From positions 744,001 through 808,000 of the forward strand of contig NZ_SGXE01000002.1 of the NCBI RefSeq assembly GCF_004216895.1: a DNA stretch of 64,000 nucleotides. The letters are read 5' to 3'. The DNA is from Aquimarina brevivitae. Its GTDB lineage: Bacteria > Bacteroidota > Bacteroidia > Flavobacteriales > Flavobacteriaceae. The notes beneath the pieces are model-generated. The model saw only the letters and a program-made list of their open reading frames with translations. It ran no database searches and was not told the DNA's origin. Below, one piece after another: positions 26,333-29,707 of the stretch (within the stretch, counting starts at the first letter, position 1; each line of letters starts with the position of its first letter). The position numbers and the translations under genes were made by a program.

Positions 26333-27148
26333 ATGGAAAGATTACCAAAAATAGGCTTGCCAATATTAATCGGCGTCGTATTACTTATTATATTTATTGC
26401 TAAATCAACTATTACCATAGGTTCTGGAGAAGCTGGAGTTTTGTATAGAACTTTTGCGGGTGGAGTGGTTACTGATGAACCTCCGCTAGGGGAAGGATTT
26501 CATCTTGTCGCTCCTTGGAACAAAGTGTATACGTATGAAGTTAGACAGCAAGAAGTTTTTGAAAAAATGCAGGTACTGTCTTCTAACGGTTTAGAGATCA
26601 AATTAGATGCGTCTGCTTGGTTTCAGCCTCAGTACGATAAATTAGGGTCCTTACATCAAGAAAAAGGAGAAAATTACGTAGCAAGAATATTATTGCCTAC
26701 CATACGATCTGCAGCGCGTAGTGTAGTGGGTCGTTACACACCAGAACAATTATACTCTAGTAAAAGAGATGTGATCCAGAAAGAGATTTATGAAGAGACT
26801 AAAAAAATTGTAGAAGACCAATATGTACAACTTAATGAAGTTTTAGTGCGTGATGTTACCTTACCTCCAACAATAAAAGAGGCTATTGAACGTAAATTAA
26901 GACAAGAACAAGAATCCTTGGAGTATGAGTTTAAATTAACAAAAGCCCAAAAGGAAGCTGAAAGACAGAAGATTGACGCAGAAGGTAAAGCTGTTGCTAA
27001 CCAAATTTTAAGTGAATCCTTAACAGATAAGATATTAAAAGAGAAAGGAATACAAGCTACTTTAGAACTAGCAAAATCTCCAAACTCTAAAGTTATTGTT
27101 GTAGGTTCAGGAAAAGATGGAATGCCATTAATTTTAGGTAACCAGTAA
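26333..27148 (+). CDS. Prohibitin/SPFH-domain membrane protein
   Basis: A 271-residue stomatin/prohibitin family protein. An N-terminal membrane helix (LPILIGVVLLIIFIAKS) is followed by the SPFH domain (SGEAGVLYRTFAGGVVTDEPPLGEGFHLVAPWNKVYTYEVRQQE). The ending coiled coil (EAIERKLRQEQESLEYEFKLTKAQKEAERQKIDAEGKA) is typical of prohibitins and allows ring assembly. These scaffolds organise membrane proteases or microdomains. It lies 32 bp after the VWA gene and before the SatD-like unit, from which it is separated by a large inverted repeat. Confidence 0.9.
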   Translation: MERLPKIGLPILIGVVLLIIFIAKSTITIGSGEAGVLYRTFAGGVVTDEPPLGEGFHLVAPWNKVYTYEVRQQEVFEKMQVLSSNGLEIKLDASAWFQPQYDKLGSLHQEKGENYVARILLPTIRSAARSVVGRYTPEQLYSSKRDVIQKEIYEETKKIVEDQYVQLNEVLVRDVTLPPTIKEAIERKLRQEQESLEYEFKLTKAQKEAERQKIDAEGKAVANQILSESLTDKILKEKGIQATLELAKSPNSKVIVVGSGKDGMPLILGNQ

Positions 27149-27176
27149 AAATACTTTAACCGAAGTATAATAATAA

Positions 27177-27226
27177 ATATACGTTAATTAGCATATAACT
27201 AAATTTATATGTATATTAGCGTATAT
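27177..27226. promoter_or_regulatory. Large inverted repeat upstream of the SatD-like gene; candidate operator
   Basis: Two 22-bp arms (27177-27198 and 27205-27226) are inverted repeats with 18 of 22 positions complementary, separated by a 6-bp spacer. Each arm contains ATATACG and CATATAA. The right arm ends 8 bp before the ATG at 27235. There is no T tract directly behind a GC-rich stem, so it is unlikely to be a terminator. It may be bound by the HTH of the SatD-like protein; this is inference. Confidence 0.55.
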
Positions 27227-27234
27227 TTTTTTAT

Positions 27235-27834
27235 ATGATAGCAGTATTAACAGGAGATATTATCAATTCCAGATCGGTAGCGGCTAACTTATGGATGCCA
27301 AAATTGAGGCATATATTAGGTATATACGGAAAAGAGTTTGCGGATTGGGAGATATACAGAGGCGATACATTTCAATTACAACTCAGTCCCGTAAATGCTC
27401 TAGAAGCAGCGATACACATCAAATCTTATATCAAACAATTTAAAGAGTTGGATGTACGTATCGGTATTGGTATTGGAGAAAAAGACTTTAAAGGTAAATC
27501 TATTTCAGAGTCTAATGGCAGTGCTTTTGTAAACTCAGGTTACTGTTTTGATCATTTAAAGAAAAGAACATTAGCCATCAAAACACCTAATACATCGCTC
27601 AATGAAGTGATGAATTTATGTTTGGAACTGGCTACGCTGACAATGGATAACTGGCCACCAGTTACATCAGAAGTTGTGGCGGCAGCGCTTGAAAATAAAA
27701 AATTAAATCAAACTCAACTTAGTAAAGTTTTGGATAAGCCACAAAGTAATATCAGCGAATCATTGAATAGGGCAGGATATGATGCCATACGCAAGCTAAT
27801 AAACGTATACACCACAAAAATAGCCGAATTATAA
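27235..27834 (+). CDS. SatD-family protein: cyclase-like N-terminal domain plus C-terminal helix-turn-helix
   Basis: A 199-residue protein resembling the SatD family of unknown function. Residues 1-110 follow the order of a class III nucleotide cyclase domain: AVLTGDIINSR with D8, EIYRGDTFQL with D44 (the two Asp would be metal ligands), a helix, DVRIGIGIGE (73-82), and GSAFVNSGYCFDHL (95-108), comparable to the GDAVNxAARL helix of cyclases. Residues ~155-185 (KKLNQTQLSKVLDKPQSNIS...) form a helix-turn-helix. The stop codon overlaps the ATG of the DUF3307 gene (TAATG), so the two are coupled. The cyclase resemblance is my reading of the sequence, not an established function. Confidence 0.7.
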   Translation: MIAVLTGDIINSRSVAANLWMPKLRHILGIYGKEFADWEIYRGDTFQLQLSPVNALEAAIHIKSYIKQFKELDVRIGIGIGEKDFKGKSISESNGSAFVNSGYCFDHLKKRTLAIKTPNTSLNEVMNLCLELATLTMDNWPPVTSEVVAAALENKKLNQTQLSKVLDKPQSNISESLNRAGYDAIRKLINVYTTKIAEL

Positions 27835-28547
27835 TGCTTTCATTTTTCTTTAAATTACTGTTATCTCATTTGGTCGGGGACTTTCTATTGCAGCCAACAA
27901 AATGGGTGGAACATAAAACTAAAAAAAAGATCAGGTCACCATATCTGTATGTTCATCTATTGGTTCACTTTTGTGCACTAGTGGTAATTTTACAAACTTC
28001 ATACTGGGTAGGAATATTCGCAGTCATAGGTTCGCATTACCTGATAGATTTATTCAAATTATACTTCACTAAACCATATAATGAGAGGTTATTGTTTATC
28101 ATAGATCAGCTATTACACATCTTGGTTTTAGTAGGAGTTTCCTATTATTATTATCCACAGGATATGGACCTGGATTTTTTGATTACTGATCAGATGATAT
28201 TATTTTTCACATTCTTAATAGTAGTCACCTATGCCGGTTCAGTTATTATTAAGTACTTAATTGCACCCTGGGACAATGAAATTGAATTTGATAATAAATC
28301 CATCCCAGGAGCAGGTAAATATATAGGCATATTAGAGCGTTTATTCGTTTTTAGCTTTGTACTCTTAGGTACCTGGTCTGCTATCGGGTTTTTAATTACA
28401 GCAAAATCGGTATTTAGGTTCGGTGATCTTAATGAAGGGAAAAACCGAAAACTTACCGAATATGTACTTATTGGTACTTTGTTGAGTTTTGGGATTGCAA
28501 TACTCTCAGGATTATTATATAATTATTGTCTAACACTTATAAAGTAA
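27834..28547 (+). CDS. DUF3307 polytopic membrane protein
   Basis: A 237-residue membrane protein with ~7 hydrophobic segments; the N-terminal SHLVGDFLLQPTKWVEHK matches what I know of DUF3307. Four segments carry polar pairs at i/i+4: H12/D16, H41/H45, H68/D72 and D91/H95. In helices such pairs face one side, which suggests a metal site within the membrane, as in membrane-embedded metallohydrolases. Translation is coupled to the SatD-like gene by a 1-bp overlap. The protein ends with membrane helices and has no soluble domain. Function is unknown; the metal-site idea is inference. Confidence 0.8.
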   Translation: MLSFFFKLLLSHLVGDFLLQPTKWVEHKTKKKIRSPYLYVHLLVHFCALVVILQTSYWVGIFAVIGSHYLIDLFKLYFTKPYNERLLFIIDQLLHILVLVGVSYYYYPQDMDLDFLITDQMILFFTFLIVVTYAGSVIIKYLIAPWDNEIEFDNKSIPGAGKYIGILERLFVFSFVLLGTWSAIGFLITAKSVFRFGDLNEGKNRKLTEYVLIGTLLSFGIAILSGLLYNYCLTLIK

Positions 28548-28629
28548 GATATTCCTATTGCTAAAACACTATAAATGAACCTTTAAAAAATCAAAAACTA
28601 CAAATCCGTAAAAAATGCTAGAAAGGGAT

Positions 28630-28659
28630 TTTGAATAAGAGATTTTTTTTATAGATTTG
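28630..28659 (+). promoter_or_regulatory. Histidine operon promoter
   Basis: TTTG at 28630-28633, an 18-bp spacer and TAGATTTG at 28652-28659 fit the Bacteroidota promoter consensus well. The expected transcript start, around 28664, is just upstream of the leader peptide ATG at 28678. Confidence 0.75.
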
Positions 28660-28677
28660 CGCAAGTAAAAAATATCA

Positions 28678-28734
28678 ATGAATACTTTTTTTGTACATCA
28701 TCATCATTCTTACAGCAACGCTCAGGCGAGGTAA
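28678..28734 (+). CDS. hisL: Histidine operon leader peptide
   Basis: An 18-codon open frame, MNTFFVHHHHSYSNAQAR, with four consecutive His codons (28696-28707), between a strong promoter and a rho-independent terminator ahead of hisG. This is the layout of transcription attenuation. When charged tRNA-His is scarce the ribosome stalls on the His codons and an alternative RNA structure prevents termination. CGCTCA at 28719-28724, within the leader, can pair with TGAGCG at 28777-28782, inside the terminator's left arm and loop, as an antiterminator. Confidence 0.88.
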   Translation: MNTFFVHHHHSYSNAQAR

Positions 28735-28767
28735 GTATGGTATGTGTATAAATTAACAATATTATAA

Positions 28768-28797
28768 AAACCCGTTTGAGCGATCAAACGGGTTTTT
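28768..28797 (+). terminator. Attenuator terminator of the his operon
   Basis: A 12-bp perfect stem (AAACCCGTTTGA / TCAAACGGGTTT) with a GCGA loop is followed by a T run, 34 bp after the hisL stop and 53 bp before hisG. Part of the left arm is complementary to the hisL coding region. Confidence 0.88.
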
Positions 28798-28849
28798 CAT
28801 TTTTTACTAACCCGTTTTCTGATTCGTTTAAGCACAAAACTCAACAAAA

Positions 28850-29707
28850 ATGTCTAAAATTAAAATTGCGATTCAAAAAAGCGGTAGACTCAATGAAGAC
28901 TCCGTAAAAATTCTAAAAGACTGTGGTATTTCTATTGATAATGGAATAGATCAGCTCAAAGCCGAAACAAGAAATTTTCCGATGGAAGTGATGTTTCTTC
29001 GTAACGGTGATATACCAAAATACCTTCGAGATGGAGTTGTCGATATAGCAATTATTGGAGAGAATGTTTTGATTGAAAAGGGCAAAGATATCGCTATTGC
29101 AGAAAAACTTAACTTTTCAAAATGTAAAGTATCATTAGCAGTACCCAAAGATTTTAATTACAATTCTATTGAAGATCTTCAAGGTAAAAAAATAGCCACT
29201 TCCTATCCTAATACGGTAACCGAATATTTAGATGCTAAAGGTATTAAGGCCGATCTTCACCAAATTTCAGGATCAGTAGAAATTGCACCTAATATCGGTC
29301 TCGCAGATGCAATTTGTGACATTGTATCTAGCGGTAGTACACTTTTTAAAAATAACTTAAAAGAAGTAGAAGTAATGCTAACTTCCGAGGCTGTTTTGGC
29401 GGTTTCACCTAAAATTTCTGAAGACAATAAAAAAATACTCGAAAAGCTTCAGTTTAGAATCAAATCTGTATTAAAAGCAAGAAATTCTAAATATGTATTG
29501 CTTAATGCACCCAATGAAAAGATAGAGGATATCGTAAAAATTTTACCAGGAATGCGAAGCCCTACCGTTTTGCCTTTAGCAGAAGAGGGTTGGAGCTCTA
29601 TACACACGGTGATTGATCAAGATAAATTCTGGGATATAATTGATGAGCTTAAAGCTGAAGGTGCAGAAGGGATTTTAGTTTGTCCAATAGAAAAAATGGT
29701 ACTCTAA
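28850..29707 (+). CDS. hisG: ATP phosphoribosyltransferase (long form)
   Basis: HisG condenses ATP with PRPP, the first step of histidine synthesis. At 285 residues it is the long form, with a C-terminal ACT-like regulatory domain (KNSKYVLLNAPNEKIEDIVKILPGMRSPTVLPL...) that confers histidine feedback inhibition without HisZ. N-terminal motifs: KIAIQKSGRLNEDSVKILKDCG, DVAIIGENVL and the PRPP-binding DIVSSGSTL. Its TAA stop shares an A with the hisD ATG. Confidence 0.97.
   Translation: MSKIKIAIQKSGRLNEDSVKILKDCGISIDNGIDQLKAETRNFPMEVMFLRNGDIPKYLRDGVVDIAIIGENVLIEKGKDIAIAEKLNFSKCKVSLAVPKDFNYNSIEDLQGKKIATSYPNTVTEYLDAKGIKADLHQISGSVEIAPNIGLADAICDIVSSGSTLFKNNLKEVEVMLTSEAVLAVSPKISEDNKKILEKLQFRIKSVLKARNSKYVLLNAPNEKIEDIVKILPGMRSPTVLPLAEEGWSSIHTVIDQDKFWDIIDELKAEGAEGILVCPIEKMVL

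Follow-up and report, generated by a model that had tools for sequence, protein, structure and literature searches.

A SatD-like palm-domain protein and a DUF3307 membrane partner behind a tandem operator array: a candidate self-regulating module in Aquimarina brevivitae

The window analysed here, a 64,000-nucleotide stretch of the Aquimarina brevivitae genome, contains two plus-strand genes that overlap in the sequence TAATG. The upstream gene, satD (27235..27834; 199 aa), lies 86 bp downstream of a Band 7 gene that ends at 27148 and encodes a palm domain followed by a C-terminal helix-turn-helix (HTH), as assigned from the open-reading-frame list, a profile match, a structure model, and Foldseek and VIA-align comparisons. 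The second gene (27834..28547; 237 aa), assigned from the open-reading-frame list, a DUF3307 profile match and a structure model, encodes a membrane protein that we call the partner. The TAATG coupling reported in a first-pass annotation is confirmed at 27834, and a search of the organism's own genome for satD returned this single match. Upstream of satD, the first-pass annotation had described an inverted repeat, which is real (32-nt arms, 78% complementary) but is better described as three unstranded 20-bp dyads at exactly 28-bp steps: dyad 1, AATACT-N8-AGTATA (27150..27169), recognized from the 28-bp-period chain, and dyads 2, TATACG-N8-CATATA (27178..27197), and 3, TATATG-N8-CGTATA (27206..27225; 9 bp before the satD start), each recognized from both the inverted repeat and the chain. 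The earlier observation is confirmed, its interpretation is supported in part, and the module is larger than first described. Beyond the partner gene, a short reading frame, MNTFFVHHHHSYSNAQAR followed by a stop codon, lies within 28678-28797, and a strong terminator-like hairpin of 14 pairs (28766-28797) follows it, ahead of the next gene at 28850, taken for hisG; the frame and hairpin look like a histidine attenuation leader.

The SatD model (mean pLDDT 97.4, pTM 0.93, from 56 aligned sequences) has the order strand-helix-strand-strand-helix-strand, and then helices ending in a helix-turn-helix (residues 142-197), so that the proposed C-terminal HTH is visible in the model. On the predicted structure, we assign residues 1-139 with very high confidence to the palm domain, whose relatives include class III cyclases, GGDEF domains and Cas10. 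Fold searches with Foldseek and VIA-align bear out the palm that had been proposed from the letters. The top Foldseek match in the PDB was adenylyl cyclase Ma1120 (E 1.0e-3, probability 1.00, TM 0.40 by query length), with no match at E under 1e-3, and the best 50 matches listed comprised 16 class III cyclases, 17 Cas10-type CRISPR chains, 10 GGDEF-bearing chains, 3 Y-family polymerases, 2 GTP cyclohydrolase III chains, 1 Thg1-like protein and 1 small CRISPR endonuclease. VIA-align gave Z scores of 10.3-11.3 for the palm across 98-134 residues, including the DosC GGDEF domain (Z 11.3, rmsd 3.1, 113 aligned), GTP cyclohydrolase III (Z 11.1, rmsd 3.6, 109 aligned) and Cmr2 (Z 10.8, rmsd 3.4, 122 aligned), where rows no more than 1 Z apart count as ties.

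Evidence for this fold from sequence comparison alone was weak. A profile search of PDB sequences was topped by an unrelated chain (E 0.0074) and then by HTH proteins, with DosC and cyclases at E 0.15-1.3, and Pfam Guanylate_cyc was not among the families listed for the window SatD at E up to 1. The cyclase-like motif order named in the first-pass annotation is present, with D8 in TGDIINS and D44 in RGDTFQ, followed by DVRIGIGIG and GSAF..SG. Two sets of SatD sequences were aligned by profile with 24 class III cyclases (E 0.01 and 0.036; probabilities 4.0% and 1.4%): D8 falls on the Asp of ADIVGFT, G43-D44 matches IGD, and the RIGIG segment matches the RIGxHTG strand. Class III cyclases use the Lys of EKIKTIGD, just before the GD hairpin, in catalysis; this substrate Lys is absent at the aligned place in the window SatD, which reads WEIYRGD, and a Lys stands one position off from it in 22 of the 89 SatD rows from plasmids and other phyla. 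Likewise, the GG(D/E)EF signature does not occur in the window SatD (RGDTF), and most SatD rows outside the phylum read xGDE (E45 in 78 of 87 ungapped). SatD has in common with class III and GGDEF cyclases a palm fold, two predicted metal-site aspartates, a GD hairpin and a RIGIG strand, but is fused to an HTH and carries WEIYRGD in place of EKIKTIGD.

The family names given to the two proteins fared differently: DUF3307 (Pfam PF11750) is clear, at 98.9 bits against a cut-off of 23, but the match of the window protein to the SatD family PF16264 falls under the gathering cut-off (25.8 bits vs 29; 24.9 bits in a six-frame search). An HMM of the window's family finds a Haloplanus protein annotated as SatD at E 4.4e-20, and that protein scores 110.9 bits against PF16264. 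Because of this HMM homology to an accepted member and its own score under the cut-off, we class the window SatD as a divergent relative of PF16264 and not as a curated member; it has a similar length, the same D...GD palm motifs and a C-terminal HTH.

Both predicted metal-site aspartates, D8 (codon 27256..27258, plus strand) and D44 in the GD hairpin (codon 27364..27366, plus strand), are strongly conserved. Among 115 SatDs of the window's taxonomic family, D8, D44 and G43 are each found in 113, R75 in 114, and G81 and G95 in all 115, and the 89 rows from plasmids and other phyla carry D8 in 84 of 85 ungapped cases and G43 and D44 in 86 of 87 each, so that conservation of the two aspartates holds across SatD homologues. 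The palm differs in subtype: E45 with A101-R102 is found in 74 of the 89 rows from plasmids and other phyla, S45 with S101-G102 in 86 of 135 phylum rows (excluding 8 rows that match only the C-terminal part, with 5 genomes having no other match), and the window protein has T45 with S101-G102. Because E45 and R102, the usual residues in other phyla, are replaced by T45 and G102 in the window subtype, the palm may be a mere scaffold here. We know of no activity described for SatD, and the suggestion that it makes a cyclic or oligonucleotide messenger is so far unsupported; the window subtype lacks the Glu45 and Arg102 common outside the phylum.

The dyads upstream of satD genes share the general form TATNNN-N8-N'N'N'ATA, in which the arm triplet varies by species. 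In the window's family, the best pair of dyads spaced by 28 bp reaches at least 15 of 18 positions in 87 of 115 satD upstreams, compared to about 1.2 expected from shuffles, and a looser count, with no shuffle control, gives chains of at least two dyads in 108 upstreams, with a step of 28 bp in 88 and 29 bp in 20. Of 78 satD upstreams from outside the phylum, 55 exceed the 95% shuffle level and 24 exceed the 99% level; 22 of these 24 have a period of 28 or 29 bp, and one is a run of N. Arm triplets differ by 0.70 mismatches within loci compared to 1.82 between loci. Across 107 loci, with palm and partner relatedness removed, the arm correlates with SatD residue 175 (codon 27757-27759), which lies in the recognition helix (residues 170-180; 27742..27774, plus strand) identified from the model and from this covariation. 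The partial correlation is 0.529, where the next SatD column (56) reaches 0.319, SatD columns average 0.010 (sd 0.086), and the maximum over 217 control columns from the partner is 0.201. Gln at this position pairs mostly with TAG or AAG, Lys with TCC and TAC, and Glu, the residue of the window SatD, with CTG, CGT or CGG. The sequence covariation thus identifies residue 175 as the main specificity position in the window's family. Among 55 loci of other phyla, residue 175 is outside the 14 best columns, which are led by 159 and 172; K175 is again found with TCC, and also with AAC and AGC, and haloarchaeal E175 with CGC or CGG. This covariation between operator and recognition helix supports the earlier proposal that SatD also binds DNA.

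A TAnnTTTG box, which we take to be the Bacteroidota -7 box consensus, occurs in 62 of 108 satD upstreams compared to 15 expected, and in 35 of the 62 it falls exactly on the 28-bp steps counted from the last dyad; the exact box is found neither upstream of the window satD nor in 46 of the 108 upstreams. SatD binding should therefore block the promoter in relatives with a -7 box and, by analogy, in the window. A reading of the repeats as RNA structure was rejected because the arms of relatives track a protein residue and adjoin the -7 box, and Rfam gave no match in 26900-28900 at E up to 0.1. A wider SatD regulon acting through tandem arrays was also rejected: with up to 3 mismatches allowed, the tandem pattern occurs in the organism's own genome only at the satD operon, and a reversed control pattern gave one match per strand. 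From the arrays before most satD genes of the family, the covariation of residue 175 and the sole tandem array, we conclude that SatD is very probably a dedicated autoregulator.

The partner model is almost all-helical, in keeping with the polytopic membrane protein of the first-pass annotation, whose probable membrane placement is read from its hydrophobic helices. Its fold gave nothing above noise against the PDB (Foldseek best E 1.8; VIA-align best Z 6.2), an absence that does not in itself argue for a new fold. A profile match defines an N-terminal DUF3307 domain (residues 4-117; 27843..28184, plus strand), the variable half of the protein, and a survey of relatives defines a C-terminal three-helix domain (about residues 155-237; 28296..28544, plus strand). 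Neither Pfam nor NCBIfam recognized the C-terminal half, and PDB sequences gave no match to it at E up to 1. The DUF3307 half of the window protein has the polar pattern HxxxD, H, HxxxD, DQxxH, and the corresponding residues H12, D16, Q20, H41, H68, D72, D91, Q92 and H95 are each kept in 55-58 of 59 rows of other phyla. Its profile matches the YdjM membrane family weakly (E 0.0013, probability 18.6%; E 0.04-0.51 for unrelated pairings), a sequence relation that is suggestive only.

Pairing of the two genes is near-obligate. Single-sequence searches of 199 genomes of the family found SatD in 108 and DUF3307 in 114, and in all 106 genomes with both, satD is directly upstream on the same strand. 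After HMM iteration, satD accompanies 113 of the 114 family partners; the sole exception (L146) is a 114-aa protein with the DUF3307 half only, and two family SatDs (G106 and G150) have no partner. In 296 phylum genomes, satD is upstream of 73 of 77 DUF3307 genes. What goes with SatD in the partner is, however, the C-terminal domain and not DUF3307 as such. Of 15 phylum SatDs without a DUF3307 neighbour, 12 adjoin an open reading frame matching the partner's C-terminal half (some only 107-137 aa, one 69 aa), one adjoins a 46-aa fragment, one is at a contig end, and one is alone.

We surveyed the C-terminal domain by scanning genome contigs with four diverse C-domains and the pattern [TA]AKSI[AFL]RF[GKE], which yielded at least 571 relatives, 80 of which were kept; the residues of the pattern are fixed in the 80 by this selection. 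Outside it, G165, E168, R169, G214 and S218 are invariant, and the domain signature reads G-x-x-I-G-x-x-E-R ... A-K-S-x-x-R-F ... E-Y-x-L-x-G-T-x-x-S. From Bacillota to haloarchaea and ANME-1, satD is upstream on the same strand at 79 of the 80 loci (78 before HMM iteration), a count for which the HMM was iterated on the very loci counted. At twelve of the 80 loci the partner consists of the C-domain only, and no trace of DUF3307 separates it from satD; among these 12, one has a broken SatD frame and another a SatD frame interrupted by N.

Exceptions to the pairing bear on the role of the C-terminal motif. In L356 and L357, where the partner is intact and satD is missing, AKA..R(V/L) and EF replace the AKS..RF and EY of the motif; L222, a relative in which satD follows the neighbour gene that L357 has as well, keeps the motif. 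The motif is lost in L359, which has no satD, and L358 and L146 have no C-domain match; in all five satD-less DUF3307 genes of both surveys it is altered, lost or missing. These changes suggest that the C-motif is what SatD acts on, with exceptions in both directions: L207 and L212 have satD yet read AKG..RY, and L241 keeps the motif without satD. An intact SatD accompanies a broken, fragmentary or missing partner at 10 loci (L239, L260, L264, L270, L298, L314, L098, L123, L205 and L206), the first six of which have a partner broken by frameshift, deletion or stop beside an intact satD. The opposite case, a broken or missing SatD with the C-domain kept, was found at 3 loci (L302, G051 and L241). 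This asymmetry of 10 to 3, which leaves out L276 (upstream a run of N), L216 (a contig end), L146 and L356-L359, comes from draft assemblies, is post hoc and is not significant alone. Together with the full partner frames of L356 and L357, the 3 loci imply that a free partner is not always lethal.

The partner also occurs in 19 plasmid records, including those of haloarchaea, Fusobacterium, Sphingomonas and Vibrio, as well as E. coli and Klebsiella plasmids of 3.8-4.4 kb. In 8 of the 19 plasmid loci that were opened, satD was recognized by HMM in seven and, in Fusobacterium, by position and motifs. The pair (L228:1792-3481) takes up almost half of pEC34A, an E. coli plasmid of 3.77 kb, and five Klebsiella plasmids encode a partner at least 99% identical to the pEC34A one; blastn of E. 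coli genomes gave no match to the pEC34A pair, and phage records gave none to SatD or partner. On a Sphingomonas insulae plasmid (L234:3201-7652), the pair adjoins one gene annotated as a Pycsar effector and another annotated as a nucleotide cyclase, and a TIR-domain gene lies about 2.3 kb upstream; as one of eight opened plasmid loci, this single Pycsar neighbour is an anecdote. A location in defence islands was considered and rejected. Among 119 neighbours of the 80 C-domain loci (119 of 121 scanned, only proteins of 110-600 aa being picked and two that overlap the module dropped by hand), 61 PADLOC families had matches with an E value no higher than 1e-10, each in at most 2 neighbours; as the scan had no control set, it gives no sign of defence islands and is not an enrichment test. 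The top neighbour Pfam families were FeoB_N (7), photolyase (6) and cyclophilin (6).

Literature searches, with most subscription papers outside their coverage, found no paper on a satD/DUF3307 module. One study reports S. pyogenes satD, tied to the window satD by gene name, as the sole accessory gene (present in 178 of 249 genomes) whose score lies in the top essentiality range (PMC11323703). Other papers place SatD in a set of proteins elevated in one S. pyogenes emm1 sublineage (PMC10210942), annotate a Fusobacterium SatD by prediction (PMC10326533) and list S. suis satD as a DNA-binding protein (PMC12005413), and a jumbo-phage paper contains the word DUF3307 once. Two transposon studies, of S. 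mutans (PMC5806208) and S. canis (PMC13167042), contain no module terms in their main text, an absence that carries no weight.

The palm-HTH fold, the conserved aspartates, the near-obligate pairing, and the operator array with its recognition-helix covariation were computed here, and on them we favour, at slightly better than even, a closed loop in which a nucleotide-state-sensing SatD repressor and a membrane effector that is harmful when uncontrolled form one self-regulating module. SatD would repress its own operon by binding of its C-terminal HTH to two to four tandem 20-bp dyads, 28-29 bp apart, that overlap the operon promoter; we propose repression rather than activation because the dyads overlap the promoter in relatives. 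Through D8 and D44, we infer, the palm would bind a metal-nucleotide, either an NTP or a nucleotide messenger, and its ligand state would set DNA binding by SatD. The membrane protein would be the effector or output, and its C-terminal domain would present E168 R169, K191 S192 R195 F196 and E209 Y210 for contact with and coupling to SatD, the conserved charged residues of the partner probably lying near the cytosolic face. The free partner would be harmful, so that SatD would act like an antitoxin or safety lock; a hint of this toxicity is that S. pyogenes satD, linked by gene name, is reported to be essential yet accessory (PMC11323703).

The same autoregulation step would also serve a harmless homeostatic circuit, which we regard as possible but doubtful, in which a nucleotide-sensing SatD tunes the level of a membrane enzyme or transporter. 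DUF3307 would then be the active half and the C-terminal domain a regulatory subunit, the partner would not be toxic, and essentiality in S. pyogenes would be an overexpression effect. The highly conserved polar set of DUF3307 resembles an active site, and the weak YdjM match and the ordinary character of the commonest chromosomal-neighbour families are consistent with such a role. However, an enzyme in DUF3307 cannot be the common function, since 12 of 80 SatD-linked partners lack this domain yet have satD upstream, and the patchy spread (108 of 199 family genomes) and carriage on small plasmids better fit an accessory unit.

Plasmid carriage, the palm fold with its metal aspartates and the one copy beside an annotated Pycsar effector, cyclase and TIR protein would fit Pycsar-like signalling, with an anti-phage operon whose palm makes a cyclic nucleotide or an oligonucleotide to open the membrane partner. 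We consider this improbable: PADLOC models gave no good match to the window pair (best E 0.018, in the HTH), no PADLOC family recurs beyond two neighbours in the scan without a control set, no cyclic-nucleotide-binding domain was found in the partners scanned, and the window SatD has WEIYRGD where class III cyclases have EKIKTIGD. Overlapping with the closed loop, and in our estimate unlikely to about the same degree as the homeostatic circuit, is a membrane-sequestered regulator: the partner would sense a membrane or outside signal and capture SatD through its C-terminal domain, turning the operon on, with the palm mainly a protein-binding surface. Retention of the C-motif with SatD and its change in the surveyed SatD-less genes argue for this mechanism, as do the tandem array with no second site in the genome and T45 and G102, which suggest lost catalysis in the window subtype. 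By contrast, a pure protein-binding role does not require D8, S12, G43 and D44, which are near-invariant in both subtypes, and L241 has the C-motif without SatD.

The closed loop that we favour has partial likenesses to known systems. In SdpR/SdpI-type operons, which are small and autoregulated, a DNA-binding repressor is likewise encoded together with a polytopic membrane protein, but the DNA-binding and membrane domains differ and the palm has no counterpart there. It also recalls type II toxin-antitoxin systems as we understand them, in placing the regulator gene first, in short spacing or overlap, in dyads before the operon and in a patchy, plasmid-borne distribution. In contrast to those systems, the protein paired with SatD is of membrane type, has three to about nine helices and is putatively toxic, and some genomes keep the partner without SatD. 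Palm domains are known both as catalysts and as degenerate receptors.

More tentatively, and with somewhat less than even confidence, we suggest that the pair is a new and ancient bacterial and archaeal signalling unit, in which a polymerase/cyclase palm serves as the ligand-sensing half of a one-component repressor, an unrecognised membrane domain is the toxic or signalling output, and the 28-29 bp operator has been kept from haloarchaea to the window's phylum. The pairing of recognition helix and operator makes the regulatory claim directly testable. The analysis offers a starting function for two families that lack one, SatD and DUF3307, and defines a third domain that was missed here by Pfam and NCBIfam. 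The module could explain how satD can be reported as essential where present yet be missing from some S. pyogenes strains. If the proposal is true, the repertoire of one-component regulators would gain a type in which a palm carries a DNA-binding domain of its own and controls a single membrane partner.
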